This document shows, piece by piece, positions 32,024-50,133 of a DNA stretch of 64,000 bases. The notes under the pieces were generated by a model. It was not told the DNA's origin. It did no database searches and worked only from the letters and a program-made list of their open reading frames with translations. Both the position numbers and the translations under genes were made by a program. This stretch comes from Okeania sp. KiyG1 (GTDB lineage Bacteria; Cyanobacteriota; Cyanobacteriia; Cyanobacteriales; Microcoleaceae), in the NCBI RefSeq assembly GCF_014132355.1, contig NZ_BLZO01000025.1, positions 1 to 64,000 of the forward strand. The letters run 5' to 3'. The first letter of the stretch is position 1, and each line of letters begins with the position of its first letter.

Positions 32024-33346
32024 ATGGCCAATAGAAGATTGACTTTTCGACTGTATCCGACAAAAGTGCAAAAAGAAAAACTATTTTTGGCCAGAAAACT
32101 GCACCAGCTTTTGTATAACGCTTGTGTCGCTCATAGACATTTTGAGTGGAGAAAAAACCGCTCAAGTGTAGACTACTTGACTCAGCAAAACGCATTACCA
32201 GGTTTTAGGCAGCAGTGGTCTGATTATCAACAGCTTAATCTGAGTTCATTGCAAGCAACCGTAAAACGAGTTGACTTAGCTTACAACGCTTTTTTCAAAG
32301 GAATCAGGAAGCGTCCAAAGTTTAAGCCAATTAGAAATTACTCCGGTTGGACTTACCCAGATGGTCGGCAAGGTTTTAAAGTGCAGATTGAATGTAGCCA
32401 AAAATATACAGTCAATTGTGGATGGGTGACACTTAATGACTTGGGTATGAGACTCAGGATGCGGGGTAGGTTTAAGTATTGGGGAAAACCTACTACTTGT
32501 ACGATTGTTTATCGTCCTCATCAAGATGAGTGGAATGCTTCATTTAGTATCAAGACCTCGGAACCATTACCATTGTTTGGTAGTAAGTCTCCACTGGATT
32601 ATGAATCAATGGTGGCTTTTGACTTAGGATGTGAAACAGCATTGACCTGCTATGACGGGTATGGGTTCGATTCAATCAGTAATCCTAGATTTGACAGGGA
32701 GTTTGCCCCAAAAATTAAGCAAGCTTCACGTCAACTCAAAAGAAAGCAGCGACCAATTAAAGGTAAGCAAAAAGCATCAAGTAGATGGAAAAAAGCGAAG
32801 AGAAAAATCTCTAAACTCAAGGCCAAACAGTCAGCCGTAAGACAAGATTGGCAGCACAAAGTCACAACAGAAATTGCTAGTTGTTATGACATCGTTGTGA
32901 CCGAAAAATTAAATGTTAGAGGTATGACTCGCAAGGCTAAAAAAGGTAAGCGCAAAAAACAGAAAGCAGGTTTAAACCGTGCCTTGTTAGATGTGGGTTT
33001 TGGAGTGTTAAACCAAATGGCGCTATATAAAATCCTAGCGAAAGGTGGTTTGCACATAACCATAGACACCAAAAAAGTCAAGCCATCTCAACGTTGCCCA
33101 AGATGTGGAAATGTTCATCAGGAATGGGCGCAATTGAGTAATCGTTACCATGTTTGTGATGATTGTGGTTTTGAGATACCAAGAGACCAAGGCTCGGTCA
33201 TGGTGATGTGGAATGTTGCTGCAGATAGGCAACCGGGGTTAGGAACTGGCCTCGTTAATCGTCGATGCTCTAGCTCTACTGATTTGACCCGTAAGCATAC
33301 TGGCTCAATGAGGCAACTGGGGCAATTGACATCCTCCCCGGCCTAA
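32024..33346 (+). CDS. tnpB: TnpB-type RNA-guided nuclease homologue (IS200/IS605 group)
   Basis: The 440-residue TnpB has the N-terminal RLTFRLYPTKVQKEKL, RuvC-I aspartate in VAFDLGCET, RuvC-II glutamate in VVTEKLNVRGM, a zinc-ribbon (CPRCG and CDDCG) and a final aspartate in PRDQGSVMVMWNVA. The last block departs from the usual DRDxNAAxNI, so activity is uncertain. The ATG at 32024 is the family start. The last eight residues (GQLTSSPA) are read from the neighbouring element's terminal sequence (GACATCCTCCCCGGCC), so this gene's own end was cut. No TnpA is present. TnpB proteins are nucleases guided by RNA from the element's right end. Confidence 0.85.
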   Translation: MANRRLTFRLYPTKVQKEKLFLARKLHQLLYNACVAHRHFEWRKNRSSVDYLTQQNALPGFRQQWSDYQQLNLSSLQATVKRVDLAYNAFFKGIRKRPKFKPIRNYSGWTYPDGRQGFKVQIECSQKYTVNCGWVTLNDLGMRLRMRGRFKYWGKPTTCTIVYRPHQDEWNASFSIKTSEPLPLFGSKSPLDYESMVAFDLGCETALTCYDGYGFDSISNPRFDREFAPKIKQASRQLKRKQRPIKGKQKASSRWKKAKRKISKLKAKQSAVRQDWQHKVTTEIASCYDIVVTEKLNVRGMTRKAKKGKRKKQKAGLNRALLDVGFGVLNQMALYKILAKGGLHITIDTKKVKPSQRCPRCGNVHQEWAQLSNRYHVCDDCGFEIPRDQGSVMVMWNVAADRQPGLGTGLVNRRCSSSTDLTRKHTGSMRQLGQLTSSPA

Positions 33347-34584
33347 AGGCACGGGGATTCCTACCGAGCCGTAACTCCTCGGCGGGTTGACGTTTTGCTT
33401 CGCATAGCTGCCGCTAACACAGGCTGCTGCTACCTTGACGCTAGTCTGACGCTTGCCTCCACGTCCGTTTTTCGTCTCCGAATGCCCTCCGGCGACTAAT
33501 ATATTGATCGCTGCATTCTCATCTCTATCATGTTTTGCGCCGCAGTTGAGACACTCCCATTCTCGCACCTGAAGGTCTAATTTTCCACCTTTAAACCCAC
33601 AGCTAGAGCAAGTTTGAGATGTGGGTTCCCAACGACTAATTACTTTAAAATCACGACCATATTTTTCTGCTTTTCCTTCTAGGAATGTTCTGAATGTTCT
33701 CCAACCTAAATCAGATATAGCTCTGGATAATTTACGGTTTTTTACCATACCAGAAACGTTCAAATCCTCTAAAACAATTGTTTGGTTTTCACTAATTATT
33801 TTAGTAGATAATTTATGCAGAAAATCTGTTCTTGTATCTTTCAGTTTGGCATGAAATTTAGCTACCCTCAACCTAGCTTTTTCATATCTTTTAGATCCTT
33901 TAGTTTTTTAGATAATGATTTGCTTAACTTTCGATATTTCTTAATTCGTTTCTTTAGTGGTTTTGGTGCATCAATTTTTTGACCATTACTTAATGTAGCA
34001 AAAGTTTTAATTCCTAAATCTATACCTACTGAATTATCCGTTTTTGGTAAAGTTTCTGGTTGTATTTCTACTACAAAACTAAGAAAGTATCTATTAGCTG
34101 AATCTTTGATTACTGTTACTGAGCTAGGCTCACTGGGTAGTTTTCTTGACCAGGCTACTTTAAGCTTTCCAATCTTAGCTAAATAAACTTTATCTTGGTG
34201 TACTTTAAACCCTCTCAAGGTAAACCTGGCAGTCTGTTTTGATTTCCTGGTTTTAAATTTGGGAGGTTTTATGGCTCTTGCTTTTCTCTGGCCTTTTGTC
34301 GAACTGAAAAAGTTTTGATAAGCTTGGTTTAAATCATTCAGTGATTGCTGTAATGGTACAACTGAAACCTCTGATAACCATTCTTTGTCTTCAGTCTTTT
34401 TTGCTTGAGTAATAAAGAGTTTTTGTAGCTCAGAATTAGTGGGTTTCTTTTGTCCTAATCTGTACTTTTCCTGACAGCAAGCTAGACTATCATTCCACAC
34501 AACACGAACACAACCAAACAGCTTTGCTAATCTGGCTTTTTGTCCCGGTGCTGGATAAATACGATACTTAAATCTAGCTTTCAT
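33305..34584 (-). pseudogene. tnpB: tnpB, inactivated by one-base deletion
   Basis: The N-terminal part (ATG 34584) gives MKARFKYRIYPAPGQKARLAK and RuvC-I VGIDLGIKTFATLS, then ends at a TGA at 33868. The other frame continues with RVAKFHAKLKDTRTDFLHKLST, VLEDLNVSGM (RuvC-II), a zinc ribbon (CSSCG, CLNCG) and DRDENAAINI. Adding one A near 33898-33901 (CTAAAGGATC to CTAAAAGGATC) joins the frames through KGSKRYEKARLRVAK, as in intact homologues. All catalytic residues are otherwise present, so the break is recent. Confidence 0.85.
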
Positions 34585-34771: not shown

Positions 34772-35665
34772 TTAAATAACAAATGCAACTTTTATCAAAG
34801 TAACTTCAGATAAGGACTTGGCAAATAGCCCTAATTGAGATGAAACAAATGCAAAGGCAAGAGCTCTGCTTGCTAAAATAATTCCGATTACAATATGAGT
34901 TGCTCCTAACTGGCGATCGGCAAATAGAGGAATATAGGTTAAACAAGGACCAAATGAGAGAATAAAAATAGAAACAATTACTATTAACAAACCTCCTACT
35001 TGATAATTATTAATACTTTGCCAAATGTTTCTCAAATAATTTTTTAAGTTAAATGATTTTTGCTTAGGTCTTGCCGGAATTTTTAAATAAAATAACACCC
35101 AAAAACTTAAGGGAATAGCCATCAAAGATAATAAGAAAGGATAGCGCCATCCCCAGGTAGTTAACCCACCACTAACTAAAGGATAAATAGTTAAAGTAAG
35201 ACCGATATTCATGACATTAAAAGCCATAGCTACTGTCAGTAATTTACCGCGATAAAAGTCACTAATTAATGTTAAAACTAATGATTCTAGTGGTGCTGCA
35301 CCAATTCCTTGTACGAAACGAAACTCTATTAAGGTCTGAAAATTGGGAGCGAATGAACAAACGGTTCCACCAATTGCAAATAGGAATAAAGCAGGTATCA
35401 AAATTTGCTTTCTACCATAACGGTCAGCTAATATTCCAAAGATTGGACTACCAATAGTAATAGGAATAACAAACGCTGAGATTACCCAACCAATATGTTC
35501 GGGAGAAACATTCAAATCTTCAGCTACTGAAGGTAAAATAGGACTTATAGAACCGGTACCTAAAAGTGCAATTAAAGTGATTCCAATAATAATCTGAAAA
35601 TTAGAATCTTGGTAAATTTTGATGGAATTTTTTGTGCTTTGAGACACTTTTCCTTGATTAATCAA
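34772..35665 (-). pseudogene. MFS transporter, C-terminal quarter missing
   Basis: The 297-residue protein starts like the complete MFS protein at 43731-44930 (about 399 residues) and aligns with it throughout (SIKIYQDSNFQIIIGITLIA, GILADRYGRKQILIPA, TTWGWRYPFLL). It stops after LSEVTLIKVAFVI, where the paralogue has about 100 more residues (roughly three membrane helices). The stop lies directly at the end of the IS200/IS605-group element, and the missing part is not found on the far side. An insertion plus deletion therefore truncated it. The A-motif GILADRYGRK is intact. Substrate unknown, and transport is unlikely. Confidence 0.8.
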
Positions 35666-35947: not shown

Positions 35948-36036
35948 AGGACTTACGCAAAGACACTATTTATAGAGTCTAGTAACTATTGTCCAATAGT
36001 TGCAAGTACTATATATAGCGCACCTACGTAAGTCCT
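35948..36036. repeat. MITE-like element, AGGACTTACGCA family, copy 4
   Basis: An 89-bp element with AGGACTTACGCA and its inverse, and CTATTGTCCAATAG inside. Its right end supplies the TAG stop of the oxidoreductase gene. Confidence 0.75.
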
Positions 36037-37021
36037 AAGTAGTTAAAACTAGCGGAGAAACATTAGTTTTATTGTGTACTTGTTCGTAGGCAATTATTCC
36101 TCCCCTAAGTGGGTAAGTAGCGATCGCTTCTGGTGGTAAAATAGCATTTGTTTCAAACAAGGGATTGAGTTCTGCCAAAATTTCCCCACATTGAGTTACG
36201 TCAAAAGCTCGACTATCTACCCCAAACAAGCGCAACTCCCGGTGATAAAAATCCCGGAGGTCAAAACAAATTTTCGCTTCTTTTGGTGGAGCACTAATCG
36301 CGACCAAACGACCTCTATGACCGAGGGTCCACATACTATTTTCCAACATAGAACCCCCGACTGTATCCAATACCACATCCACACCTTTACCTCCAGTAGC
36401 AGATAAAACAGCAGAATTAAGATTTTCCGTTGCCAAATTAATAACGATATCAACACCAGATGTTTCAACTATTGAATAATCTGATTCCCGTCGCACTGTT
36501 CCTAAAACTTTAGCTCCCTTCCATTTTGCTATTTGAATCGCAGCTTTACCAACCCCACCTGTTGCTCCCACTACTAAAACTGTTTCTCCTGGTTGTAAAT
36601 TTGCGGCTTCAATCAAAGATAACCAAGCGGTAATATATCTGACTCCGATAGTTGCTGCTTGTATCATGGATATATTTTTCGGTTTGGGTTGTATTGCTGC
36701 GACAGGTAATACCAAATGAGAAGCATGGGAACCATCACGGATAAATCCAATATCGCCTCCTGTTCCCCAAACTTCAGTACCAATTAGATTTGGCTCACCT
36801 GCGACGACAACTCCCGCAAAATCTCTACCGGGTGTGCGTGGAAGGGTAGTATTTTCCATAACTCCCAAAATATTTTTCACATCACTGGGATTAATAGATG
36901 CTGCATGAACTTCAACCAACACTTCACCTGGTTGTAAAACGGGAGTGGGAAGTTCTTCAAGTTTGAGTTGAGTCGTCGGAGAACCGAAATTGTCAAAGCG
37001 AAGCGCACGTATAACACCCAT
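36035..37021 (-). CDS. Zinc-independent alcohol dehydrogenase/quinone oxidoreductase (MDR)
   Basis: The 328-residue medium-chain dehydrogenase/reductase has the substrate-domain start (LRFDNFGSPTTQLKLEELPTP, SINPSDVKNILG, PGRDFAGVVV) and an NADPH Rossmann motif (VVGATGGVGKAAIQIAKWKGA). The cysteines and histidines that bind zinc in alcohol dehydrogenases are absent, so a quinone or enone reductase role is likely. Its ATG at 37021 sits at the family N-terminus. The last codon LTT is followed by a TAG provided by the adjacent MITE-like element. It belongs to the minus-strand run of small-molecule enzymes and transporters between 35 and 47 kb. Confidence 0.85.
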   Translation of the reverse strand: MGVIRALRFDNFGSPTTQLKLEELPTPVLQPGEVLVEVHAASINPSDVKNILGVMENTTLPRTPGRDFAGVVVAGEPNLIGTEVWGTGGDIGFIRDGSHASHLVLPVAAIQPKPKNISMIQAATIGVRYITAWLSLIEAANLQPGETVLVVGATGGVGKAAIQIAKWKGAKVLGTVRRESDYSIVETSGVDIVINLATENLNSAVLSATGGKGVDVVLDTVGGSMLENSMWTLGHRGRLVAISAPPKEAKICFDLRDFYHRELRLFGVDSRAFDVTQCGEILAELNPLFETNAILPPEAIATYPLRGGIIAYEQVHNKTNVSPLVLTT

Positions 37022-37769: not shown

Positions 37770-38981
37770 TCATCTTGTCGATCTAGCACTCAAAAGTTGT
37801 TGCTTTGGTTTTTTCCAGAAAATTGTAAAGTATAAAATACTCAAAGCTGAAACTAGAACAAATAAAGCAACACCACAAACTCCGTTCCATTGCCAATTAC
37901 TCCAAGCATAGTTACCAAAGTAAGACCCCATTGATCCTCCCACAAAATAGGAAACCATATAAACCGTATTCAGACGACTATGTATTTTGGCAGGCAAACT
38001 ATAAATTTGTGCTTGGTTAGAGATTTGAGTTGTCTGTACTCCCAAATCTAACAACATCACTCCCAAAATTAAACCCCATAATTCATATCTTGCTAAAGAA
38101 AATACTAAAAATGATGAACTAGAAATCACAACACCTAACATAGAAATCAATCTAGGATTTTTTCTATCTGCCATTCTACCAGCAATTACCGCTGTTATAG
38201 CTCCCACAACACCAAGCAAACCAAACATTCCTGCTACTTTACTACTGTAGTTTAGGGGTGGCGCTTTCAGGAAAAATGCCATTGTACTCCAGAAAATACT
38301 ATTAGCAGCAAAAGACATTGCCCCAATTAAAGCTACTTGTCGCAATAATAACTGTTCTCGAATTATTTGTCCCAAAGAAAAAATTAATTTAGGGTATGAG
38401 AGAGTCACAGAGGGTTTTGCTTTTGGCAGTACAAATGTTGATACTACTGCTATTAACATCATCAACCCACTAGCAAAGAAATATATTGCTCGCCAACCGA
38501 AATTTGCTCCGACAAACCCGCTAGTCATTCTAGCTAAAACAATCCCAATGAATAAACCACTCATTACAGTTCCGACAGCTTTGCCACGTTTTCCCGGTTC
38601 TACTAAAAAAGCAGCAAAAGGTACAACGAGTTGGGGAATTATTGTAGTCATACCAATAAGTAAACTCGCAACAATTAACCAACTAATATTAGGAGATATA
38701 GCTGCTGTTAGTAAAGCTATAGCGGTTGCTATTAGCATTGTCACAATTAAGCGTCGTCGTTCTATGATATCGCCCAAGGGCACAAATAGCAGTAATCCCA
38801 AGGCATAACCAATTTGTGTCATCATGGGAATTAACCCGACTTGCTGAGTGGGAGCATGGAAGCTTTCGGCAATTATTGCTAATAGGGGTTGATTGTAATA
38901 TAAATTGGCAACTGCAGCTCCACCGACCATTGCCATAATTAATAAAGTTTTGTTAATACCCATAGTTGATTTTTGAGACAT
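37770..38981 (-). CDS. MFS transporter, DHA1-like
   Basis: The 403-residue, 12-helix major facilitator protein begins (from ATG 38981) with MSQKSTMGINKTLLIMAMVGG and then NLYYNQPLLAIIAESF, a start shared by bacterial efflux transporters of the YnfM/aromatic-type family. The motif A loop reads LLFVPLGDIIERRRLI. The upstream in-frame ATG at 39038 lies in CAACAGGCA minisatellite and is rejected. It has no sequence closeness to the two other MFS genes here beyond the fold. Location among cyclitol-type enzymes suggests export of a small product; the substrate is not known. Confidence 0.8.
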   Translation of the reverse strand: MSQKSTMGINKTLLIMAMVGGAAVANLYYNQPLLAIIAESFHAPTQQVGLIPMMTQIGYALGLLLFVPLGDIIERRRLIVTMLIATAIALLTAAISPNISWLIVASLLIGMTTIIPQLVVPFAAFLVEPGKRGKAVGTVMSGLFIGIVLARMTSGFVGANFGWRAIYFFASGLMMLIAVVSTFVLPKAKPSVTLSYPKLIFSLGQIIREQLLLRQVALIGAMSFAANSIFWSTMAFFLKAPPLNYSSKVAGMFGLLGVVGAITAVIAGRMADRKNPRLISMLGVVISSSSFLVFSLARYELWGLILGVMLLDLGVQTTQISNQAQIYSLPAKIHSRLNTVYMVSYFVGGSMGSYFGNYAWSNWQWNGVCGVALFVLVSALSILYFTIFWKKPKQQLLSARSTR

Positions 38982-39160
38982 AGTCTTTGTTTGTAGTTGC
39001 GCTAAAGCGCTACGCGCAAGGCAACAGGCAGTAGGCAATAGGCAACAGGGGAATAAAAAAGGGTTTTCCTACGGAATGCTGCGCAAACAGCTTCTATTCA
39101 TATCCTAACCTTAATGGGTAGCGCTATAGATATATTTACCGAATAATTAATAATTAATAT

Positions 39161-39249
39161 AGGACTTACGAAGATACGCTACATATAGCGCTAAAGACTA
39201 TTGGACAATAGTTATTGAACTCTATAAATAGCGCCTTTGCGTAAGTCCT
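39161..39249. repeat. MITE-like element, AGGACTTACG family, copy 5
   Basis: An 89-bp copy inverted relative to that at 35948, with ACTATTGGACAATAG inside. The same palindrome recurs in every unit of the satellite that starts 90 bases later. Confidence 0.75.
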
Positions 39250-39339
39250 GTAATAATTAAATAAGGCTTTGTTGCATGAAAGTATATAGCTGCCGCACTT
39301 GCTGCGCATATGTACTTCATAACGTGTGGAAACTGCTGT

Positions 39340-40870
39340 AACTATTGGACAATAGATCAATAGAACATTAATAATCGTGAAACAGAGCGATTAAGCTGCG
39401 CAATGGATGTTAAGAACGCTACTTTCATCCAACAAAGCCAAAACAGAAGAATAACTGAACCCAGATTCTTACTTTTAACTTTTAATTTTTGACTTTTGAG
39501 TTGTGTATAGCGATCGCTTGGCACTGCACAGAAATAACTATTGGACAATAGATGGTAGTGCATTAATAATCGTGAAACAGAGCGATTAAGCTGCGCAATG
39601 GATGTTAAGAACGCTACTTTCATCCAACAAAGCCAAAACAGAAGAATAACTGAACCCAGATTCTTACTTTTAACTTTTAATTTTTGACTTTTGAGTTGTG
39701 TATAGCGATCGCTTGGCACTGCACAGAAATAACTATTGGACAATAGATGGTAGTGCATCAATAATCGTGAAACAGAGCGATTAAGCTGCGCAATAGATGT
39801 TAAGAACGCTACTTTCATCCAACAAAGCCAAAACAGAAGAATAACTGAACCTGGTTAGATTCTTACTTTTAACTTTTAACTTTTGACTTTTGAGTTGTGT
39901 ATAGCGATCGCTTGGCACTGCACAGAAATAACTATTGGACAATAGATGGTAGTGCATTAATAATCGTGAAACAGAGCGATTAAGCTGCGCAATGGATATT
40001 AAGAACGCTACTTTCATCCAACAAAGCCAAAACAGAAGAATAACTGAACCCAGATTCTTACTTTTAACTTTTAACTTTTGACTTTTGAGTTGTGTATAGC
40101 GATCGCTTGGCACTGCACAGAAATAACTATTGGACAATAGATGGTAGTGCATCAATAATCGCGAAACAGAGCGATTAAGCTGCGCAATGGATATTAAGAA
40201 CGCTACTTTCATCCAACAAAGCCAAAACAGAAGAATAACTGAACCCAGATTCTTACTTTTAACTTTTAACTTTTGACTTTTGAGTTGTGTATAGCGATCG
40301 CTTTCTCAGCAGAGCAATAACTATTGGACAATAGATGGTAGTGCATCAATAATCGTGAAACAGAGCGATTAAGCTGCGCAATGGATGTTAAGAACGCTAC
40401 TTTCATCCAACAAAGCCAAAACAGAAGAATAACTGAACCCAGATTCTTACTTTTAACTTTTAATTTTTGACTTTTGAGTTGTGTATAGCGATCGCTTGGC
40501 ACTGCACAGAAATAACTATTGGACAATAGATGGTAGTGCATCAATAATCGTGAAACAGAGCGATTAAGCTGCGCAATAGATGTTAAGAACGCTACTTTCA
40601 TCCAACAAAGCCAAAACAGAAGAATAACTGAACCCAGATTCTTACTTTTAACTTTTAATTTTTGACTTTTGAGTTGTGTATAGCGATCGCTTTCTCAGCA
40701 GAGAAATAACTATTGGACAATAGATGGTAGTGCATCAATAATCGTGAAACAGAGCGATTAAGCTGCGCAATGGATATTAAGAACGCTACTTTCATCCAAC
40801 AAAGCCAAAACAGAAGAATAACTGAACCCAGATTCTTACTTTTAACTTTTAACTTTTGACTTTTGACTTT
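39340..40870. repeat. 195-bp satellite, eight copies
   Basis: TTAAGCTGCGCAAT recurs at about 39390, 39586, 39781, 39980, 40175, 40369, 40564 and 40758, so the period is 194-199 bases. Each full unit holds CTATTGGACAATAG, ATCGTGAAACAGAGCG, AGAATAACTGAACC, an ACTTTTAACTTTTGAC minisatellite and a HIP1 site (GCGATCGC). Since 195 is 65 codons, one minus-strand frame stays open through several units, but no ribosome site or protein family supports coding. Units differ by point changes and short indels. Confidence 0.9.
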
Positions 40871-40872
40871 AT

Positions 40873-41640
40873 TTAAGTCTGTGCATACCCTGCATCTACA
40901 ACTATGGTCTGACGAGTTATTGCTCTGGATGTATCAGAAGCAAGAAATAAATATGTTCCTACTAATTCTTGGGGTGTTAATTCTATGGGAATTGATTGTA
41001 ATTCATGTACAGTCTTATGTTTTGCTTCTGGTGTCACCCACTGTCGCAGTTGCCTTTCTGTCATTATCCAACCTGGTGCTACGGAATTTACTCGAATATA
41101 ATGTTTGCCTACTGCTTCTGCTAAAGTCCTAACCATACCTACTATTGCTCCTTTTGTGGCATTGTAAGCAACCATATCTGGTTTAGCAATCCAAACTAGG
41201 TGAGAACTTGTCATAATAATACTACCGCCACCAGCATTAATCATTTCTGGTAATAATTCCCGACAAGTGATGAAATAATGTACAACATTTAATTGAAATA
41301 AATCATTCCATTCTTGTGCTGACATTTCTAACAAGTTATATCTGGGGTCATAACCTGCATTGTTAATTAAAACATTTACTACTGGTTTGTCTTTTTTAAC
41401 TTTAGCTAAAGTTTCAGTTAAAGCCTCACTATCAGTTAAATCTATTCCATAGACGTTGACTTTACAATTATATTGTTGGCATTCTTCAGCTACTTTTAAA
41501 CCTCTTTCATAATCTTTATCTAAAATGGTAACTTCTGCTGCTTGTTCCGCAAATGTTTTAGTTAGAGCTTCGCCAATTCCATTACTGCCACCAGTAATTA
41601 ATATATGTTTTTCTTTGAGGTCTTGATAGATGGGATTCAT
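40873..41640 (-). CDS. Short-chain dehydrogenase/reductase (SDR)
   Basis: The 255-residue classical SDR has the cofactor motif TGGSNGIG (16-23), NNAG (93-96), catalytic Ser 146, Tyr 159 and Lys 163 (YNATK) and the NSVAPGWI strand. An aspartate after the second strand (LDKD) favours NAD(H). Such enzymes oxidise or reduce sugar, cyclitol or ketone groups. It is next to the sugar isomerase-like gene and 4 kb from the cyclase, all on the same strand, which makes reduction of a cyclitol ketone an attractive inference. Its stop is directly at the border of the satellite array. Start ATG 41640 has AGGAGAAAAC upstream. Confidence 0.9.
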   Translation of the reverse strand: MNPIYQDLKEKHILITGGSNGIGEALTKTFAEQAAEVTILDKDYERGLKVAEECQQYNCKVNVYGIDLTDSEALTETLAKVKKDKPVVNVLINNAGYDPRYNLLEMSAQEWNDLFQLNVVHYFITCRELLPEMINAGGGSIIMTSSHLVWIAKPDMVAYNATKGAIVGMVRTLAEAVGKHYIRVNSVAPGWIMTERQLRQWVTPEAKHKTVHELQSIPIELTPQELVGTYLFLASDTSRAITRQTIVVDAGYAQT

Positions 41641-41733
41641 TTTGTTTTCTCCTAATTTTAATTTTAATTCGTAGTGTTTAAAGGAAGCAATAAGCGTAGG
41701 TTTGGTTGACGTAGGAAACCCAACAACAATAAG

Positions 41734-41980
41734 TAGGGTTTGCGCTTCACTAGTCTTTTAGTAGGGGTAGGAGACAGGATACAGGACACAGGAGACAGGA
41801 GGAACGGGGAATTATAGAGGAGGTAGTCGGAAAAATTGTAAGAGTTATTTTTCTGCCATAATCGTCCCAAAATACTAGCTTTATGCAGCTCTTTCCGCCG
41901 AAAAGCTGGCACTTTTTTCGACCAAAAAATGCTAAAACCTTGATCTGTCAATGCTTTGATATTTAATCAGCAAGCCCTAA
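41734..41980. repeat. MITE-like element, TTAGGGCTTGCTG family, copy 2
   Basis: Right end ATTTAATCAGCAAGCCCTAA is the inverse of the left end of copy 1. The left end AGGGTTTGCG is degenerate. It contains a GGAGACA array. Confidence 0.65.
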
Positions 41981-41993
41981 GTAAAAATGGTGC

Positions 41994-42192
41994 GTTACCG
42001 AATAATTAATAATTAAATAATTCTGGTTTAAAGCCGACCCTTTTAAGGTGAAAAAAGCGGTCGAGGGATGGCGAGGTCTCCTCGCCATATCCAATCGACC
42101 AAGAGAAGAAATAATATTTCCTTATATTCAATTCCGTAACGGTTTTAACCAGAGGTAATTATCAATTATCCATTATCAATTATCAATTTAAT
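41994..42192. repeat. TTACCGAATAATTA-family element with hairpin cassette
   Basis: Starts TTACCGAATAATTAATAATT and ends in TTATCAATTATCCATTATC. The hairpin cassette at 42051-42103 is inverted relative to that at 16201. The copy at 54499-54648 is the same element without the cassette. Confidence 0.7.
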
Positions 42193-42264
42193 CCGTATAT
42201 CCGTGGCAGAATCCCTGTGAGCACCTCAACCAAACCTACATCTATATGCAACTAAAACTATAAA

Positions 42265-43101
42265 TCAACTATTAGCAACTAATACTTTTGTTTGATTCAT
42301 AATCCATTTTTTACTGACTGACAAATGAAATTTTAGTTCATCCAAATCAATCTCTTCTTTTGAACCTGGTGTTTGTCGAGGTTGAGCACATTCCAGAATT
42401 ATTGGACCGGAGAATTTTATCTCATCTAGTGCGTCGAAATGTTCGGCAAAATTAGTATGACCAAAACCAATGCCTTTTCTATTAGAATCAGCAATTTGAT
42501 ATACGCTCAGTTTATCCCCACATCTTTGAATAGCTTCAACTAAATTTGCTTCTTCTAAATTGCCATGATAAGTATCTAGAATAACAGTCATATTTGGCGA
42601 GTTAATTTCTGCGAGTAAAGATAAAACATCATTGCTATTCAGAATGAAACGACATAAATAACGATTCAGGGGTTCAAAGCCTAATTTTATTTTGGCTTTT
42701 TCTGCATAAGCTGCTAATTCTTGGCAAGAAGCAATTAAATTATCCCTCGAACCTGCATAAGTAGTTCCCATCTGACTCTGAATATATTCATGGCAAGTAA
42801 TTATAGGATTACCTAATTCCGCTCCATAATCAATTAACTTTTTATAGTAATCTAGAGCTGCCATTCTTGTTTGGCGATCGCTACTTCCTAAATCTACATT
42901 ACTAGGAGTCATGGAGAATATTTCTAATCCATTATCCGCCAAAATATTTTTCACATCTTGGGGTAGAGTTTGATTAATATCTACATATAATTCGACTCCA
43001 TCGAAACCCATATCTGAAATAATATTGGCAGTTTTTTCTAATTTATTCTGACCAAATATCCAGGTAGTAACACCGATTTTTCTTTGTATACTTATACTCA
43101 T
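42265..43101 (-). CDS. Sugar isomerase/epimerase-like TIM-barrel protein
   Basis: The 278-residue protein belongs to the xylose-isomerase-like TIM barrel superfamily. It shows FEPLNRY (Glu 143), LDTYH (Asp 176), a third ligand region YQIADSNR (Gln 202, Arg 208) and IILECA (Glu 237). These correspond to the metal-binding Glu, Asp, His/Gln and Glu of ketose 3-epimerases, hydroxypyruvate isomerase and inosose-handling enzymes. The Gln in the third position is as in hydroxypyruvate-isomerase-type members, while EPLNRY and DSNR are more like D-tagatose/D-psicose 3-epimerases. Neighbours are an SDR and a DOIS-like cyclase, so epimerisation or dehydration of a cyclitol ketone (inosose) is a reasonable guess. 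Start ATG 43101. Confidence 0.8.
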   Translation of the reverse strand: MSISIQRKIGVTTWIFGQNKLEKTANIISDMGFDGVELYVDINQTLPQDVKNILADNGLEIFSMTPSNVDLGSSDRQTRMAALDYYKKLIDYGAELGNPIITCHEYIQSQMGTTYAGSRDNLIASCQELAAYAEKAKIKLGFEPLNRYLCRFILNSNDVLSLLAEINSPNMTVILDTYHGNLEEANLVEAIQRCGDKLSVYQIADSNRKGIGFGHTNFAEHFDALDEIKFSGPIILECAQPRQTPGSKEEIDLDELKFHLSVSKKWIMNQTKVLVANS

Positions 43102-43433
43102 TTTCTTAGTAGATATATTACAAAAAAACTTAAGTTATCTTTTCCCATAAAGTAAGTATTTCCTGGGGAATGCTGCGCAAACAGCTATTAGCAGTAAGCT
43201 ATTCCTTTGGAATGCTACGCAAACAGCAATTAGTAATAAATAATTACTTCTAAGGTTTAGGAAGGGGAGTTTAACAGTAACTTTTATTCTGTCTCAATTT
43301 CTCAATTATTTTTACCAATGAATAATTGATAATTAATAATTAATCTATTCGGTTTAAACCCTCTCCTTTTAAGGATAAAAAAGAAATCAGATTTCCTTAT
43401 ATTCAATTCCGTAACGGTTTTAACCATAGGTAA

Positions 43434-43682
<249 letters not shown>

Positions 43683-43730
43683 TTAAAGCCTTCCCTCTTC
43701 CTTCTTCCTTCTTCCTTCTTAAATATTAGG

Positions 43731-44930
43731 CTAATCAACAGTTACAAAAAGTTTACTAATTAACCCCAAACTCAAAACAGAAAAACCAGCAGCAGCGTAA
43801 AAAACTCCAGCTATTCCCCAAACTCCAAAAGCAACTCCAGCTAACAACGGACCTAATGCTTGTCCTGTAGATAAAACTGTAGCATTAACAGCCATAAAAC
43901 CAGCGCGATAATCTTGAGGAGCGAGTTTTCCTAACAATGCCTGAGTAGCAGGATAACACATTCCATGAGCAGCTCCAAACAAAATACTAGGGATTAATAA
44001 TAACCACATATTTTGTAGGAATGGAGTAACTATTACTGCCAAAGTATAAAGTACAAATGAAATTTTAATTAGGGTAAACTCTGATAGAGATTGAGAAAAT
44101 AATGCTACCTGAGAAGACACAAATGCTAAAGATAAAGCCATAGTTGCTAAAATCATTCCAATTGTCACATTAGAAGCTGCAAAAACATCTGCAGCTAAAA
44201 TCGGAATATAAGTAAAATAAGCACCAAATAGCAATATAAATAAAGCAACTACTGCAAATAATAATCCTAATACCTGCCTATTATTAACACTATGCCAAAT
44301 ATTTCTTAAATATACCTTCAAACGGAATTTTGGCGGCTTTTCAAAGGAGGGTAATTCTAGGAAAAAAATAACAGCAAGTACAACTGGAACTGCAAGCATT
44401 GGCAGTAAAAAAGGATAGCGCCATCCCCATGTTGCCAACCATCCAGTAATTAGAGGATACACTGTCAAACTTATGCCAATCATACTAGCGTTGAATGCCA
44501 TTGCTGATGTTAAACTTTTGCCTGCATACAAATCGGTGATTAATGTAAGTGCGAGGAATTCTAAACTAGCAGCTCCTACACCCTGGAGAAACCGCAATTC
44601 TAGCAATGTACGAAAATTGGGAGCAAAGCTGCAAGCAACTCCAGCGACAGCAAACAATAACAATGAGGGAATGAGTATTTGTTTTCTCCCAAAGCGATCT
44701 GCTAATACTCCTAAGATGGGAGTTCCAATGGCGATGGGTACAACAAATACTGTAATCACTAATCCTATTTTTTCTGGAGGAATTTGCAGTGCTGATGCCA
44801 TTGTTGGTAATACTGGTCCGATACTACCTGCTGAACCTAAGACTGCTATCAATGTTATCCCAATAATGACTTGCAGGTTTCTATCTAAGTAAATTTTTGT
44901 ACTGTGACTGATAAATTTACTGTTTTCCAT
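43731..44930 (-). CDS. MFS transporter
   Basis: The 399-residue, 12-helix major facilitator protein carries the motif A loop GVLADRFGRKQILIP and a duplicated half structure. It is the full-length paralogue of the truncated gene at 34772-35665. No binding motif identifies the cargo. It lies between the isomerase-like gene and the cyclase, the usual place of an exporter in a small biosynthetic cluster. The start ATG 44930 follows GGAAAGTCAAGTA. Its downstream gap is filled with CTTCCTTCTT minisatellite. Confidence 0.85.
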   Translation of the reverse strand: MENSKFISHSTKIYLDRNLQVIIGITLIAVLGSAGSIGPVLPTMASALQIPPEKIGLVITVFVVPIAIGTPILGVLADRFGRKQILIPSLLLFAVAGVACSFAPNFRTLLELRFLQGVGAASLEFLALTLITDLYAGKSLTSAMAFNASMIGISLTVYPLITGWLATWGWRYPFLLPMLAVPVVLAVIFFLELPSFEKPPKFRLKVYLRNIWHSVNNRQVLGLLFAVVALFILLFGAYFTYIPILAADVFAASNVTIGMILATMALSLAFVSSQVALFSQSLSEFTLIKISFVLYTLAVIVTPFLQNMWLLLIPSILFGAAHGMCYPATQALLGKLAPQDYRAGFMAVNATVLSTGQALGPLLAGVAFGVWGIAGVFYAAAGFSVLSLGLISKLFVTVD

Positions 44931-45789
44931 TACTTGACTTTCCTGGTGAATGAATATTTGACAAGTATTGTTAATGTAAGCATCTTGCTTACGGACAGTC
45001 AGTTGGAGTGCAGAACTGTAGGTTGGGTTGAGACAAGTTAGCGGAGCTTATCCGTTAGCGCAGCTTATCCGTAGGATAAGGATAAACCCAACATTAGTTA
45101 GTAGGGTTGGCAAATAGCGATCGCTCTATAGAACCCATTTAGTATCTTTAGTATGCGGTATGTGCTTTTAGCAACAGTCCTCAGTCTGAGCGAGTCAGTG
45201 GAAATTCAGGAACAAGAATAGGGGAAAAAGTGGATGCGACCCCGCGCCGTTCGATAGTGCACCAAGCAAGTAGAAAAATGCTCTTATCTCCCCATCTCCC
45301 CATCTCCCCATCTCCCCATCTCCCCATCTCCCCATCCCCCCATCTCCCCATCTCCCCATCTCCCCATCTCCCCATCTCCCCATCTCCCCATCTCCCCATC
45401 TCCTCCTCTATTTTTAAATAGATCCCAAGGCTCTATATTCATGGTCAACCTGTTTGGAATTGCCCACCCTGCTCTATTCTTATGGGAGCAAGATGCTCAC
45501 ACTACCCAACAATTCAATCTTGACAAACCATGAAATTTTATGCTAAAATATCAAGCTACTCTACTCCTCCTTTAAGGATTTATCCTTTACCCCACTGGAA
45601 ACCTTTGTCAGACAGGGAATAGGTTGTAGGGAAAACACGGGAAAAGGTGTAATTTCGATGATTAAATCCCCATAAAATCTCGATTTTTTTCCTTTCCCTA
45701 TAATTAAATTTATCAATCTTATTTCCCATCATTGTACTTACAAATAATCCTAAGTTGGACTGAGGAGAAGTAGAGTTAAATTACTGCAA
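44931..45789. other. Gene-free spacer between cyclase and transporter
   Basis: Apart from the 45127-45437 element there is a CAGCTTATCCGTTAGCG/CGCTAACTTG-like inverted stretch near 45040-45085. The part 45440-45789 shows no gene and no clear hairpin. Confidence 0.55.
45127..45437. repeat. TATAGAACCC element, copy 3, with expanded 10-bp array
   Basis: Same ends and flanks as copy 2 (TATAGAACCC, GCACCAAGCAAGTAG, TTTTTAAATAGATCCCAA). The CATCTCCCCA unit is repeated about twelve times at 45288-45408 where copy 2 has about one and a half. Three frames stay open through the array and give spurious ORFs. Confidence 0.8.
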
Positions 45790-46959
45790 TTATGCAACAG
45801 CAAGTGCAACTTTTCCAGTTGCTTTTTTAATATAATTATCCAGAACTTTTTCTACCGTTTTATTGTCAACCGTCATCAAAAAATCTCCTTCTGGATTATA
45901 ACATTGACCGATTTTTTCTAACATAACAAACCGAAGGTCGTCCCCTGTTTTCTTATTATCTGCAATCATCGCCTTCATTAATAAATCAGTAGTTACATGC
46001 TCAGGCCAAGGATTATTAAATCCGAGTTTATCATCAATAAAGTGGTGGTGCAAATCTACATCTTCTTGTGACATAAAGCCCAGTTCTTGCCCTAGTTCCG
46101 CTACTATTTTCATACCATAAGAAACTGCTTCTCCATGAGATAGTTTTCCTTTTAGCAGCCATTCCAAACCATGACCAAAGGTATGACCATACTCTAAAAT
46201 AATTCCATAATGTTTTTCAGTGGGGTCTTTTTTGAGTATTTCTAACTTGGAAAGAATAATTTTATAAGCTAGGTCAGTTAACACCTGCTCGGAAAAATCA
46301 AGCTCAGGATTAAGAGTTTTTTCTAAATAATCCAAAAAGGTAGGTTCGGCAATAAAACCATTTTTAATCCCTTCAATAATCCCACATCGCTTGGAGAAAG
46401 GAGGCTCTGTTTTGAGGTATTTTGTATCTCCCCAAATAAACAGAGGACTATGATAAAGACCAAAGTGATTTTTACCACTTAAACCATTAACCGCTTGTTT
46501 GTTACTGAGGGTACTATCAGTAATTCCAGTCATGGTTGTAGATACTTCGACAAAGTGAATTCCACGATAAATTAATCCAGCAACCAAACCGACAATATTT
46601 CCTACTGTTCCTCCACCAAAGGCAATTAATAGAGATTTTTTAGATACACCTTCAGTGACTAATGTTTCACATATTTGTTCTAAAACTGAAAAATATTTAC
46701 ATTTCTCACCAGGGGGAACCATTTCTAGAAGACATTTGTATTCCGAATTCAGCTCGTGGAACAGTTCCTCTCCGTAAAGCCCAAACATATTTTGCTCTGA
46801 GAAGAAAAAGATTTTGTCTATATCGTGTTTTGATAATTCTTTGAGAAAATGTTCTTTAATATCATATCCGAAATAAAATGGACTGGGTTTTTCCAGCTCA
46901 GTGCTGAGTTCAACCATTTTTCCTGGAGTCCATTCTTGTGTGATGTTATAGTCTACCAT
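45790..46959 (-). CDS. Sugar phosphate cyclase, 2-deoxy-scyllo-inosose synthase-like
   Basis: The 389-residue protein is a dehydroquinate-synthase-fold cyclase but not AroB. It has the NAD-binding GGGTVGN (115-121), STTMTGITDSTLSNKQAVN with Lys 154, SGKN (161-164), EGIKN with Glu 196 and Lys 199, EYGHTFGH (256-262) and HGEA (275-278). SxKQAVN and the glutamate in xEYGHT are features of 2-deoxy-scyllo-inosose synthase (BtrC type: Lys 141, Glu 243), where AroB has an LNxGHT asparagine; EEVS and MysA cyclases have GHTW. DOIS turns glucose 6-phosphate into 2-deoxy-scyllo-inosose. AAAGGAG lies just before ATG 46959. No aminotransferase accompanies it, so aminoglycoside synthesis is unlikely; a deoxy-inositol is possible. 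Confidence 0.8.
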   Translation of the reverse strand: MVDYNITQEWTPGKMVELSTELEKPSPFYFGYDIKEHFLKELSKHDIDKIFFFSEQNMFGLYGEELFHELNSEYKCLLEMVPPGEKCKYFSVLEQICETLVTEGVSKKSLLIAFGGGTVGNIVGLVAGLIYRGIHFVEVSTTMTGITDSTLSNKQAVNGLSGKNHFGLYHSPLFIWGDTKYLKTEPPFSKRCGIIEGIKNGFIAEPTFLDYLEKTLNPELDFSEQVLTDLAYKIILSKLEILKKDPTEKHYGIILEYGHTFGHGLEWLLKGKLSHGEAVSYGMKIVAELGQELGFMSQEDVDLHHHFIDDKLGFNNPWPEHVTTDLLMKAMIADNKKTGDDLRFVMLEKIGQCYNPEGDFLMTVDNKTVEKVLDNYIKKATGKVALAVA

Positions 46960-46966
46960 TAGTAGT

Positions 46967-46975
46967 TCTCCTTTG
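46967..46975 (-). promoter_or_regulatory. Strong ribosome binding site of the cyclase
   Basis: On the minus strand AAAGGAGAACTACTA precedes the ATG at 46959. This is one of the best Shine-Dalgarno matches in the window and fixes the start. Confidence 0.7.
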
Positions 46976-47053
46976 TGGATATAGTGTTAATTGCTTTAAT
47001 TGCTATAGTGAACTAATTAAAATAAAATGTCAGTAGATTGAATCTACAATTTT

Positions 47054-47293
47054 CTATAATACGCGATCGCGTTGTAGTCTGGCCTTAATTTCACCAGCTA
47101 ATTGTCTAGCTTGAGGATTGGGATTACCACGTTTGCTACACCATTGTCGGACAGTTTGGGGTTGCACTCCCATCAACTCGGCAAAATCATCTCTATTAAA
47201 GCCTTCTAGCTTCTGCTGTAGTTCAAAGAGTAGTTGCACTGGGTGATAATCAGATACTTGTATTCTTGCTAAATTGAATATTGTTTTACGCAT
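47054..47293 (-). CDS. Small helix-turn-helix protein
   Basis: The 79-residue protein has a HTH with the pattern FNRDDFAELMGVQPQTVRQWCSKRG, as in XRE-type and related DNA-binding domains. The ATG at 47293 has AAGGAA nine bases upstream and is preferred to the ATG at 47332. It lies 94 bases before the cyclase on the same strand, so it may be its regulator or merely the distal part of a former toxin-antitoxin pair. There is no partner toxin. The binding site is not evident. Confidence 0.6.
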   Translation of the reverse strand: MRKTIFNLARIQVSDYHPVQLLFELQQKLEGFNRDDFAELMGVQPQTVRQWCSKRGNPNPQARQLAGEIKARLQRDRVL

Positions 47294-47332
47294 TATCTCA
47301 ATTTCCTTTTGTTCGCAACGTTGATGGACCAA

Positions 47333-48006
47333 TGAAATTGCCTATCATAATGTCATGTCCAATTTGAAAAATTTGATAGCACTACGCATTAAGGCGCATT
47401 AATGTATTTGATATTGCTACAAGCTCAAAAGCTATTTTAGCTATCAAAAGTAAAAAACTAGAAAAGATATCGTCATTATTATTCTTGATCAAGATTTGAT
47501 GTTCTCACACCGTTAACTGCTCCCAGTGCAACGGTGGCTTTGTCCAACTTACAAATAAGTTATTAAGAATAAAACTTATTAAGTTAGATTGTGTTTCCAA
47601 GGTATTTGGACTTAAATAAAGCATTATTTTTTGGCAATTTTTTACTTAAAGGTTAGTTTAAAGCCTCTAAAAGTAATTGATATAAATTCTCAATATTTTT
47701 TAGAAATATCAATCAAATCAGAGGTTTATTGAGAATATGCTATGATCGCAAGTCTAACTATCAAGAGGGGTTTTATATAAAGTTAACAAGAGGGGTTTTA
47801 TATAAAGTTTATTATAACTAATAAACAAAGAAATTTGGAAATGATCGGATGAGTATTGTCCCTAAATACTCTCAATTATTATGGAATGTCCCTTTTATTT
47901 TTATATAGTATATGTTGATAATTCTATAATTACTTCAATATTTAATCTCCTAACTCCCTCACTCCCTCACTCCCCTATATCACAATAAATATCTAATTAT
48001 GTCTAA
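47333..48006. other. Gene-free stretch with a short direct repeat
   Basis: CAAGAGGGGTTTTATATAAA with AGTT occurs twice in tandem (47763-47811). TATATAAAG-like boxes could be promoter parts. A CTCCCTCACTCCCTCACTCC array lies near 47955. No gene is recognised. Confidence 0.5.
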
Positions 48007-48245
48007 TTAATAAGTTAATTTATCGTGGTAATTAACAGCAAAATCATGCCAAGTATTTGGTTTGCGTCCTACTATTGCTTCAAAGTTATCGAAAATGCGA
48101 TCTGCTGGGGGAATTTTATCAGCAATGTTTAGTTATAATTGAGTGTAAACACAGTTTATATAGGCATTAGAGTTAATACCCTCTACTCCAGGTTGTAAAG
48201 CCTTTTCTAAAAGCTCTTGAGGCGATCGCACTTCTGTTTTACAGA
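48007..48245 (-). pseudogene. C-terminal remnant of an NmrA-like protein
   Basis: Minus-strand reading gives EVRSPQELLEKALQPGVEG, then a stop, then IADKIPPADRIFDNFEAIVG and GRKPNTWHDFAVNYHDKLTY before stop 48007-48009. The DNFEAIVGRKPxTWxDFA pattern is the C-terminus of NmrA/epimerase-like reductases. An in-frame TAA near 48131 and the lack of an N-terminus show decay. The inverted-repeat element at 48238 cuts its upstream side. Confidence 0.6.
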
Positions 48246-48346
48246 GGTTTTCATTTGGGTAGACCACAGTAGGGACGTTCCATGGAACGTCCCTACAAAG
48301 TTTTGCTTATGAAGAAATGGTTCATCAATTTGAAAAGTGCTGTAAA
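48238..48346. repeat. MITE-like element, ACAGCGCTTTTCA family, copy 1
   Basis: Ends TTTACAGAGGTTTTCATTTG and GAAAAGTGCTGTAAA. GTAGACCACAGTAGGG follows the left end. It contains a perfect 28-bp palindrome at 48269-48296 (GTAGGGACGTTCCA and its inverse). Other copies: 49456-49606 and 51054-51181. Confidence 0.7.
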
Positions 48347-48384
48347 AGGCCGCCCGATTACTTCTGTAAGTACTAATGCATCTA

Positions 48385-49389
48385 TTACTCGCTACCAGTT
48401 ATTGCATCTTTTTGAACTTCTCGTGCTTCACCTTTCCAACCACTATGTCGTAACCAAGTTTCAAAATTCATCAAATCAGGATGGATTTTTCTTAAAGCTT
48501 CATGGTTGCGATCGGGACCATATTCGCGATGAAACTTAAATTGATTGAGAGGATCGTGAACATTAGACATATCGAGAGCTAAAAATTCTTCATCACTCAT
48601 AGGTTGATACTCTGCGGGAATACCCGTTACTCGCTCAAAAGTAGCTGCAATTTGAGCAAAAGTTAGGCGATCGCCTCCGATCTCCAATGTTCGACCACCC
48701 CAGGTTTCCCGATGGGCAAACATATGGGTTGTAAACCAACCAATGTCATCAAGAGCAATAAAAGGATAGGGAGCATCTGCGGCTGGTACAGAAAAAATAA
48801 ATCCTTCCCGCCCATCACTAAGTTTTCCCCAACTTGGCTTCATAAAAGCAAATAAGTTTTCAAAGTAAGCTAATGTTTTTAATACGCTAACATTGCTCGA
48901 ATACCAACCTTTCTCTTGGCGCATGAATTCATCCGATCTGTGCCAGTCAATTTCGTGTTCGACAGCAGCTTTGGCGTCGAAATGAGGTACGGGAACTTTT
49001 CCTTGAGAAATGTGAACGCAAGCATCGAGAGAGGAATAAATAAAATGCTGCACATCAGCTTTTCGAGCAGCTTCCAAAACGTTTAACCCTATTTGACGCT
49101 CTTTAGTCACGCTGCTACCAACCCAAAAATTGGTATTGCAAAACACCCCATAAACGTCTTTCATCGCTTTGGTAATAGTTTCATAATAATTAAGATCGCC
49201 TTGCTGACATTTAACACGATCGCTATCTAATTTAACTAAGCTTTGAGCATGAGAACTATTGGTATTTCTGGTAAAAGCTCGAATTTGCCAATTATTCTTT
49301 TTATCTGTGAGCAAATGTTTGACGACAAAACTTCCCATTGCCCCTGTCGCGCCAAAAACCAAAATAGTTCCTAATGATTCTGATGCCAT
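48385..49389 (-). CDS. NmrA-like NAD(P)-binding protein
   Basis: The 334-residue atypical SDR has the NmrA/HSCARG glycine motif GATGAMG near residue 14, AFTRN for the cofactor phosphate, QQGDLNYYETITKAMK and a YSSLDAC strand. The catalytic YxxxK is absent, as in NmrA-type redox sensors. It may bind NADP and act as a sensor or reductase. Its C-terminus (RKIHPDLMNFETWLRHSGW) is typical. The start ATG 49389 has AGGAGAAATAAATAAAA upstream. The decayed fragment at 48007-48245 is a different NmrA-like protein, directly downstream. Confidence 0.8.
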   Translation of the reverse strand: MASESLGTILVFGATGAMGSFVVKHLLTDKKNNWQIRAFTRNTNSSHAQSLVKLDSDRVKCQQGDLNYYETITKAMKDVYGVFCNTNFWVGSSVTKERQIGLNVLEAARKADVQHFIYSSLDACVHISQGKVPVPHFDAKAAVEHEIDWHRSDEFMRQEKGWYSSNVSVLKTLAYFENLFAFMKPSWGKLSDGREGFIFSVPAADAPYPFIALDDIGWFTTHMFAHRETWGGRTLEIGGDRLTFAQIAATFERVTGIPAEYQPMSDEEFLALDMSNVHDPLNQFKFHREYGPDRNHEALRKIHPDLMNFETWLRHSGWKGEAREVQKDAITGSE

Positions 49390-49455
49390 TTTTATTTATT
49401 TCTCCTAAAATAACTTTTTCAATAGTAATGACTAAAAATTTGTTGTTTAGTCTCT

Positions 49456-49606
49456 TATAGCGCTTTTCACATGGATAGACTACAGTTAGTATGGGCAACC
49501 CAAAAGCATTTTTCTACTCCTACTCCTACTCCCTACTCCCTACTCCTACTCTACTCTAAGCGCCAAAAATAATTTTGTGGTCTACTCAAATGAAAAGCGC
49601 TGTAAT
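49456..49606. repeat. MITE-like element, ACAGCGCTTTTCA family, copy 2
   Basis: Ends TATAGCGCTTTTCACATGG and TCAAATGAAAAGCGCTGTAA, with TAGACTACAGTTAG and TGTGGTCTAC next inside. It contains a CTACTCCTACTCCC heptamer array. Confidence 0.7.
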
Positions 49607-49656
49607 AATTTATTATACAGATATACTATTTTTATGGAATAAACAATTTCTAAAAT

Positions 49657-50133
49657 ATGGTTAACGAAAGCAATATCGAAATTTATCTGTTAGAAACTTA
49701 TAAACACTTAAATATCATCAATTCCTGGGGCGAACGCAGCTACTTTGTTAATCCTGGGATGAAGTTGAAGCGTGGAAGCTATTTTGTCACTATTAAATCA
49801 AAGGATGGTGAAAATGATAAAGCCTCATATCTCAACCGCACTGGGGTTTTTCGGCTTAATATTGGTTTGACACCTGAAAAATACGAAGAAATATTTGGTC
49901 TTCGACCGTCAAGACCTCCTAAAGGCGGAGTTATTGAAGGAGATTTTGATTTTCAGGCATTAAACGTCTTTATTCCCCATCCTGTCTACGGTTGGATGGG
50001 CTGGATAGCTATTAATAATCCCGATTTAGACAATTTTGAAAAATCTCAAGAATATTTGGATATTGCTTACGAAAAAGCTTTCAGATCCGCCTCAAGGAAA
50101 CTGAAAACTAATGTCACGCTTAACAGTAAGTGA
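49657..50133 (+). CDS. DUF6194 family protein
   Basis: The 158-residue protein fits DUF6194 by its pattern: FVNPG...SYFVTIKSKDGEND, LNRTGVFRLNIGL, DFDFQALNVFIPHPVYGWMGWIAINNP and a helical end. The PHPVYG...GW block is the most conserved part of that family. There is no signal peptide, membrane helix or recognised catalytic set. Function is unknown. It is a lone plus-strand gene. ATG 49657 is preceded by AT-rich DNA without a good ribosome site. Confidence 0.75.
   Translation: MVNESNIEIYLLETYKHLNIINSWGERSYFVNPGMKLKRGSYFVTIKSKDGENDKASYLNRTGVFRLNIGLTPEKYEEIFGLRPSRPPKGGVIEGDFDFQALNVFIPHPVYGWMGWIAINNPDLDNFEKSQEYLDIAYEKAFRSASRKLKTNVTLNSK

Follow-up and report, generated by a model that had tools for sequence, protein, structure and literature searches.

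The window analysed here, 64,000 nucleotides (positions 1 to 64,000) of contig NZ_BLZO01000025.1 of Okeania sp. KiyG1, contains a gene cluster centred on a sugar phosphate cyclase resembling 2-deoxy-scyllo-inosose synthase (DOIS). This contig (C25; G000:C25 in our labelling, in which G codes denote compared genomes and L codes fetched stretches) belongs to a 10.98 Mb genome whose closest named relatives are Okeania metagenome-assembled genomes (MAGs) and O. hirsuta. The cyclase (389 residues; 45790..46959) is followed on the minus strand by a transporter of the major facilitator superfamily (MFS1; 399 residues; 43731..44930), a triose-phosphate isomerase (TIM) barrel protein, here termed type A (TIM A; 278 residues; 42265..43101), and a short-chain dehydrogenase/reductase (SDR; 255 residues; 40873..41640). 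MFS1 (PF07690) is of the efflux type and Bcr/CflA-like (TIGR00710, below cut-off), forms part of the core of the type A clusters described below and adjoins the cyclase in the type A relatives; TIM A (PF01261) belongs to the same conserved core, and the SDR (PF13561) is conserved with TIM A. Ratios of nonsynonymous to synonymous substitution rates (dN/dS) of 0.06–0.23, from 16 gene comparisons with three relatives, indicate that the cluster genes are maintained.

The cyclase scores above the cut-offs of PF01761 and PF24621 and retains the metal-site residues Glu196, His259 and His275. Its best match in the PDB is BtrC, the DOIS of butirosin biosynthesis (172 bits, versus 142 for the best AroB), and a profile of 15 cyclase rows scores 231.8 against BtrC and 182.9 against the next match. 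The SxKQAVN motif (S152-N-K154-Q-A-V-N158) and the glutamate of the EYGHT motif (Glu256, the counterpart of BtrC Glu243), from which the initial annotation had recognized a DOIS-type enzyme, are both in place. The DOIS set is present in all 19 rows of the window's clade at all 19 compared positions; Lys141 and Glu243 are important residues of BtrC. At the position of the AroB arginine, which presumably binds the carboxylate of the substrate 3-deoxy-D-arabino-heptulosonate 7-phosphate, the clade has glycine in 18 rows and alanine, as in Sodalis DOIS, in one; the AroB asparagine is replaced by glutamate. Both arginine and asparagine are found in six of the six AroB-type rows (of 11) on which this comparison rests.

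A cyclase tree of 41 rows, 19 of which form the window's clade, leads to the same assignment. Its DOIS rows are BtrC (the sole characterized enzyme), two DOIS-annotated records and two related Streptomyces cyclases that lack annotation. These rows, the window's clade and the cyclase of stretch L060 constitute one branch with a support of 100/100, outside which lie the AroB rows and those of demethyl-4-deoxygadusol synthase (DDGS) and 2-epi-5-epi-valiolone synthase (EEVS). The window's clade is itself supported at 100/100 and stands beside the other DOIS-type rows (92/84) as their sister rather than within them, in a tree with long branches that were flagged by the tree program. Constraining the clade to the AroB-type rows lowered the log-likelihood by 34.6 and was rejected in the approximately unbiased test (p-AU 0.007), as was constraining it to the sedoheptulose-7-phosphate (S7P) cyclases (lower by 35.9, p-AU 0.001). 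An S7P cyclase identity (EEVS/DDGS) was accordingly discarded, since both the clade and the active-site set differ. Judged by its sequence, the window cyclase is of the DOIS type, in a sister clade of its own, rather than an AroB, EEVS or MysA enzyme, and the phylogeny by which the initial annotation had proposed to check this claim bears it out.

Cyclase matches at E ≤ 1e-55 occur in 26 of 389 genomes of the order (Cyanobacteriales). With one of these, G121 (34% identity), set aside as a non-orthologue, orthologues of 64–100% identity are present in 25 genomes from 15 genera. A phylum-wide sample of 386 genomes yielded three at E ≤ 1e-50, all from the same order as the window. A deltaproteobacterial MAG holds a relative that is 51% identical; among 297 genomes of its phylum, six matches were found besides the MAG, with identities of 30–35%, and all six fall outside the DOIS branch. 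Family searches around G104, G042 and G187 (55 genomes) returned the known genomes again, together with L091 and L092. Such a patchy distribution suggests either transfer or recurrent loss. Two Okeania MAGs contain a tandem second cyclase that is 87% identical to that of the window (L003:980-3951 and L005:8224-11170); the window has a single copy.

The nearly constant companion of the cyclase is a TIM barrel of one of two types. At thresholds of E ≤ 1e-50 for TIM A and E ≤ 1e-30 for type B (TIM B; query from Calothrix, L009), TIM A was detected in 17 of the 389 genomes, all 17 with the cyclase, and TIM B in nine, eight of them with the cyclase. One or the other is present in 24 of the 25 cyclase genomes, and both in G359. 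Among the 364 genomes lacking the cyclase, TIM A occurs in none and TIM B in one (G328), in which a contig end falls inside the MFS gene; the sole cyclase genome without a TIM barrel is G162, whose cyclase is interrupted and which has a fragment of an MFS gene. The hypergeometric probability of this co-occurrence is 5.5e-36 when genomes are counted and 9e-19 when genera are, values that are uncorrected and ignore relatedness. Gene order was compared in 28 genomes (the 25 cyclase genomes, Calothrix, Mastigocoleus and the deltaproteobacterial MAG), in 26 of which the cyclase and TIM genes share a contig and are three genes apart at most; these 26 include G217 and G266, where one partner is cut by a contig end. 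The cluster is split over two contigs in G024, and G162 has no TIM gene. The cyclase–TIM cluster is a real conserved cluster.

Type A clusters bring with them the MFS and SDR genes. The SDR adjoins at least one TIM A copy in each of the 17 TIM A genomes and in Mastigocoleus, and O. hirsuta has a second TIM A copy without an SDR. An SDR homologue (≥60% identity) was found in none of 11 TIM B stretches, in a search that covered the fetched stretches and not whole genomes. The two modules are exchangeable even within one genus (g127), in which G346 has the order cyclase–MFS–TIM A–SDR–OprB and G349 and G358 have cyclase–MFS–TIM B–OprB, such that TIM A plus SDR and TIM B substitute for each other in one position, with the same MFS and OprB genes on either side. 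When A and B labels are placed on the cyclase trees, four or five changes are needed, at least two of which are forced by well supported branches, and the labels are no more clustered than shuffled ones (137–148 of 500 shuffles as low); for this purpose label A was given to L010 and L030 on the basis of another contig or locus of the genome, and to L008 though its genome also has a B cluster. Because the modules are exchanged behind the same cyclase, they probably share both an intermediate and a place in the pathway; they probably need not yield the same product.

TIM A is closest in the PDB to TM_0416 (IolO) and to the D-tagatose 3-epimerases. It scores 126 bits against the IolO family model, the cut-off of which is 300, and thus falls short of IolO membership. 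The initial annotation had called it a barrel of the ketose-epimerase or inosose type, but it is not specifically inosose-type; the IolI-like barrel is TIM B of other genomes, which is closest to 3u0h (81 bits) and IolI (57 bits). Profile comparison of TIM A with TIM B gives a weak match (probability 45%, E 2e-4). The invariant residues of TIM A are E143-D176-H179-Q202-E237, and residues of this E-D-H-Q-E kind act as metal ligands. The best solved match of the SDR is sulfoquinovose 1-dehydrogenase.

Further genes flank this core in the window. A small helix-turn-helix (HTH) gene (47054..47332, with a likely ATG start at 47293, the end coordinate of the region in the initial annotation) lies upstream of the cyclase, conserved in position and recognized by weak HTH matches; MFS2 (PF07690; 37770..39038, likely start 38981) and a quinone oxidoreductase-like member of the medium-chain dehydrogenase/reductase (MDR) family (PF00107, with TIGR02824 below cut-off; 36035..37021) lie beyond the SDR. 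As first described, every gene reported is an unbroken minus-strand open frame, two complete MFS genes among them, and Pfam agrees with the expected kind for each except the HTH gene, which has sub-cut-off HTH matches only. A third MFS gene had been overlooked (34772..35665, minus strand; PF07690; 97% identical to L118:10354-11565); its full length is 403 residues in O. hirsuta, and the window copy ends early, at residue 297, beside minus-strand pieces of IS605/TnpB-type transposase genes (33305..34584; PF12323, PF01385 and PF07282) beyond its end. No aminotransferase or glycosyltransferase family was matched by the nine window proteins scanned with Pfam (36035–50133), in agreement with the first reading. 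PADLOC gave no match for the HTH and cyclase genes, and a defence role for this pair was rejected on that ground.

The HTH and cyclase genes are 94 bp apart. The gaps in the series cyclase–MFS1–TIM–SDR–MFS2 are long (624–1834 bp) and contain repeat arrays, unlike several relatives in which the core genes almost touch. Downstream of the SDR, a 195 bp unit is repeated in 7.8 copies with 96% matches (39339–40866); open reading frames inside this array repeat one another and are unlikely to be genes. An 8 bp minisatellite, ATCTCCCC, is present in 14.8 copies between the cyclase and MFS1 (45286–45403).

In the fetched stretches, the MDR, HTH and MFS2 genes are confined to the window's family (Okeania, Hydrocoleum and MO_207), apart from a 56% identical MFS2 relative in G104. 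Thus, of the neighbours listed in the initial annotation, TIM and (in type A clusters) MFS1 and SDR are conserved with the cyclase, whereas MDR, HTH and MFS2 are local additions outside the conserved core. Other lineages have additions of their own. A cytochrome b561-like gene accompanies the cluster in G024, G050, G187, G217, G272 and Mastigocoleus (Pfam checked in two), and OprB-porin homologues flank it in G346, G349, G358 and G328 (confirmed by Pfam for L047 of G349). Between the cyclase and TIM B, G042 and G359 have a UbiG-like O-methyltransferase whose score exceeds the TIGR01983 cut-off, and in G104 TIM B is followed by a catechol-type dioxygenase and a flavin-dependent (FAD) halogenase-like gene, in addition to the MFS2 relative. 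A sulfotransferase gene is part of the cluster in O. hirsuta, SIO3B5 and SIO2C9 (L118:11941-12951, L013:13457-14503 and L005:19607-20602; PF00685 shown for O. hirsuta and SIO3B5), in SIO3B5 between the MFS and TIM genes, which suggests a sulfated product in these three Okeania. No sulfotransferase was detected by translated search of the window or in G000:C25 60000–79900, the rest of the genome being unsearched. Two type A genomes encode a ParB-like protein upstream of their cyclase (L010:4070-5017 and L011:4158-5093), and one that is 41% identical (L060:5964-7007) precedes the aminotransferase and cyclase genes of L060.

We propose that the cluster may convert a primary sugar phosphate into a six-carbon deoxy-cyclitol, a full scheme to which, from sequence, we give an even chance. 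The cyclase, with bound NAD and a metal ion, would convert glucose 6-phosphate to 2-deoxy-scyllo-inosose (DOI) with release of phosphate, as its fingerprint and position in the tree indicate, and it is likely that the window cyclase carries out this cyclization. The metal-dependent TIM barrel, A or B, would then shift or invert a centre beside the DOI ketone, much as IolI acts on scyllo-inosose. IolI converts scyllo-inosose to 1-keto-D-chiro-inositol, which is then reduced by a dehydrogenase (PMC3176187). That the TIM barrel acts on the product of the cyclase is, with good confidence, the firmest element of the scheme; the partnership follows from co-occurrence, whereas the chemistry is inferred. 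In type A clusters only, the SDR would reduce the isomerized deoxy-inosose to a deoxy-inositol of the quercitol or viburnitol kind; such an end product for the window's cluster is a tentative proposal that falls somewhat short of an even prospect. MFS1 may export the product, which some Okeania may sulfate beforehand. Of the epimerization and reduction put forward in the initial annotation, the TIM partnership is upheld. SDR reduction cannot be general, because a TIM B cluster occurs in eight of the 25 cyclase genomes and no SDR homologue is present in the stretches fetched for it (G359, among these eight, also has a type A cluster).

Several observations weigh against this scheme. The histidine at the third metal-site position is a metal ligand in IolI, IolO and D-tagatose 3-epimerase; the histidine of its relatives IolO and D-tagatose 3-epimerase is replaced by Gln202 in TIM A (eight of eight aligned rows), and that of IolI and 3u0h by Glu215 in TIM B (eight of eight rows). 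The likeness of TIM A is to epimerases of open-chain ketoses, and the best matches of the SDR in both the PDB (a sugar 1-dehydrogenase) and NCBIfam (D-xylose 1-dehydrogenase, below cut-off) are enzymes that oxidize. TIM B stretches are without the SDR and have an MFS gene in just three of 11, and the UbiG-like methyltransferase, catechol-type dioxygenase and sulfotransferase of some relatives hint at other chemistry. The clade of the cyclase is separate, with 31–33% identity to two DOIS-annotated records, such that another substrate or product is possible. Assignment of function from trees is uncertain in this superfamily, for which 2-epi-valiolone synthase (EVS) serves as an example (PMC5133447).

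One alternative is that the clade uses a sugar phosphate other than glucose 6-phosphate, for example another hexose phosphate, and forms a different inosose. The long-branched, separate position of the clade as sister of DOIS would fit, as would the fact that TIM partners were not seen in four DOIS-type plasmid stretches examined; however, all compared active-site positions are as in BtrC, bar the alanine for glycine in one row that is shared with Sodalis DOIS, and we consider another substrate rather unlikely. A different departure from the scheme would lie in the second step, with the TIM barrel removing water from DOI to give a deoxy-diketone or a trihydroxybenzene without recourse to shikimate, and with the SDR, methyltransferase or dioxygenase acting next. 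By eye and unaligned, E143-D176-H179-Q202-E237 of TIM A resembles Glu134-Asp165-His168-Gln191-Glu239, which are five of the ten residues that PMC7442255 gives for the active site of the aromatizing dehydratases QuiC1 and QsuB. The methyltransferase of G042 and G359 and the dioxygenase and halogenase-like genes behind TIM B in G104 would also suit such a route. On the other side, the nearest relatives of TIM A (IolO and D-tagatose 3-epimerase) and TIM B (3u0h and IolI) are not QuiC, and an intradiol dioxygenase above cut-off occurs in just three of the 25 cyclase genomes, in one of them inside the cluster. The glutamine is not diagnostic either, because hydroxypyruvate isomerase has one at the same place. 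The dioxygenase counts led us to reject the aromatic route as a general explanation, and as a rival it is unlikely. Its fullest version, a shikimate-independent path from glucose 6-phosphate to a polyhydroxybenzene in which the TIM barrel would dehydrate DOI twice and the phenol would then be methylated, cleaved, sulfated or exported according to lineage, appears from the sequences to be improbable.

Since BtrC is an enzyme of an aminoglycoside pathway, synthesis of an aminocyclitol resembling 2-deoxystreptamine, with the aminotransferase encoded elsewhere, was also weighed. A DegT aminotransferase is present in two of the four DOIS-type plasmid stretches, and the cyanobacterial genomes G121 and G185 carry a 33–34% identical cyclase beside one. 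Yet a search with the DegT of L060 at E ≤ 1e-8 matched none of the frames in 21 other cyclase stretches, aminotransferase families are unmatched among the scanned window proteins, the L060 cyclase is outside the window's clade, and the DOIS-annotated Streptomyces stretch L065 lists an MFS gene and no aminotransferase within 6 kb (its gene table being incomplete). Aminocyclitol synthesis is thus very unlikely. Finally, the top NCBIfam profile of the window cyclase is aroB (TIGR01357, 242.9 bits), as would be expected if it were an extra 3-dehydroquinate synthase serving the shikimate pathway. This score is below the cut-off of 305, the AroB arginine and asparagine are replaced, an AroB clade is rejected and a separate AroB, the only other DHQS_C match in the genome, is encoded on contig C121; such a role is barely credible.

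The loci with DegT genes deserve description in their own right. L060 (G121; 5964–13507) and L119 (G185; 941–11112) have cyclases that are 33–34% identical to that of the window, each beside a DegT aminotransferase, and the two DegT proteins are 69% identical. The DOIS fingerprint was checked in L060, which also encodes a nucleotidyltransferase; L119 encodes a radical S-adenosylmethionine (SAM)/SPASM protein and a PIG-L protein just below cut-off, and HAD- and epimerase-like genes were recognized by eye in these stretches. They possibly represent an aminocyclitol cluster. In L065 (5950–8663; a plasmid of Streptomyces sp. NBC_00015), the DOIS-annotated gene is followed by an MFS transporter, perhaps another use of DOIS outside aminoglycosides.

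DOI synthase is familiar as the enzyme that opens the pathway to the 2-deoxystreptamine aminoglycosides. A cyanobacterial DOIS-type branch spanning 15 genera, with exchangeable TIM barrels and no aminotransferase found alongside, points to an unrecognized natural use of DOI, which could be a deoxy-cyclitol solute, an exudate, a secondary metabolite or a new way into aromatic compounds. If true, the DOI-type reading would also correct the 'AroB' label on these genes. The literature surveyed by titles and abstract openings contained no cyanobacterial DOIS-type enzyme, DOI or quercitol route; its coverage of subscription journals is poor, and this absence is no proof.

Among known systems, the 2-deoxystreptamine clusters differ in having a DegT/StrS-type aminotransferase beside DOIS, which was not found among the scanned window proteins; no DegT relative was found in the 21 related stretches either. 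The mycosporine cluster (MysA/DDGS, MysB and MysC) is likewise a cyanobacterial sugar phosphate cyclase cluster, but MysA belongs to another cyclase clade with another active site; MysA-like cyclases occur elsewhere in the relatives G390, G391 and G392, with MysB and MysC neighbours recognized by eye and unscanned. The ebo cluster includes a prenyltransferase among other gene kinds, as well as EboE, a TIM-barrel protein; neither prenyltransferase nor other Ebo-type domains were matched by the nine scanned window proteins. It too is a conserved cyanobacterial cluster with a sugar phosphate cyclase, EboD, and an unknown product, but EboD falls among the S7P cyclases (PMC5133447). Inositol catabolism by IolI and IolG has in common with our scheme an inosose TIM-barrel isomerase followed by a dehydrogenase (PMC3176187), and IolI is, with 3u0h, closest to TIM B. 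It differs in that the scheme for the window would begin by cyclizing a sugar phosphate and run toward a product, the IolI histidine is glutamate in TIM B, and TIM A is IolO- and D-tagatose 3-epimerase-like. The nearest counterpart is the DOIS BtrC of Bacillus circulans, with which the window cyclase shares its fold, NAD- and metal-site residues, active-site set and a single 100/100 branch that excludes other cyclases; the window's clade is set apart as a sister of its own, in which a TIM barrel adjoins the cyclase, with or without SDR and MFS genes.

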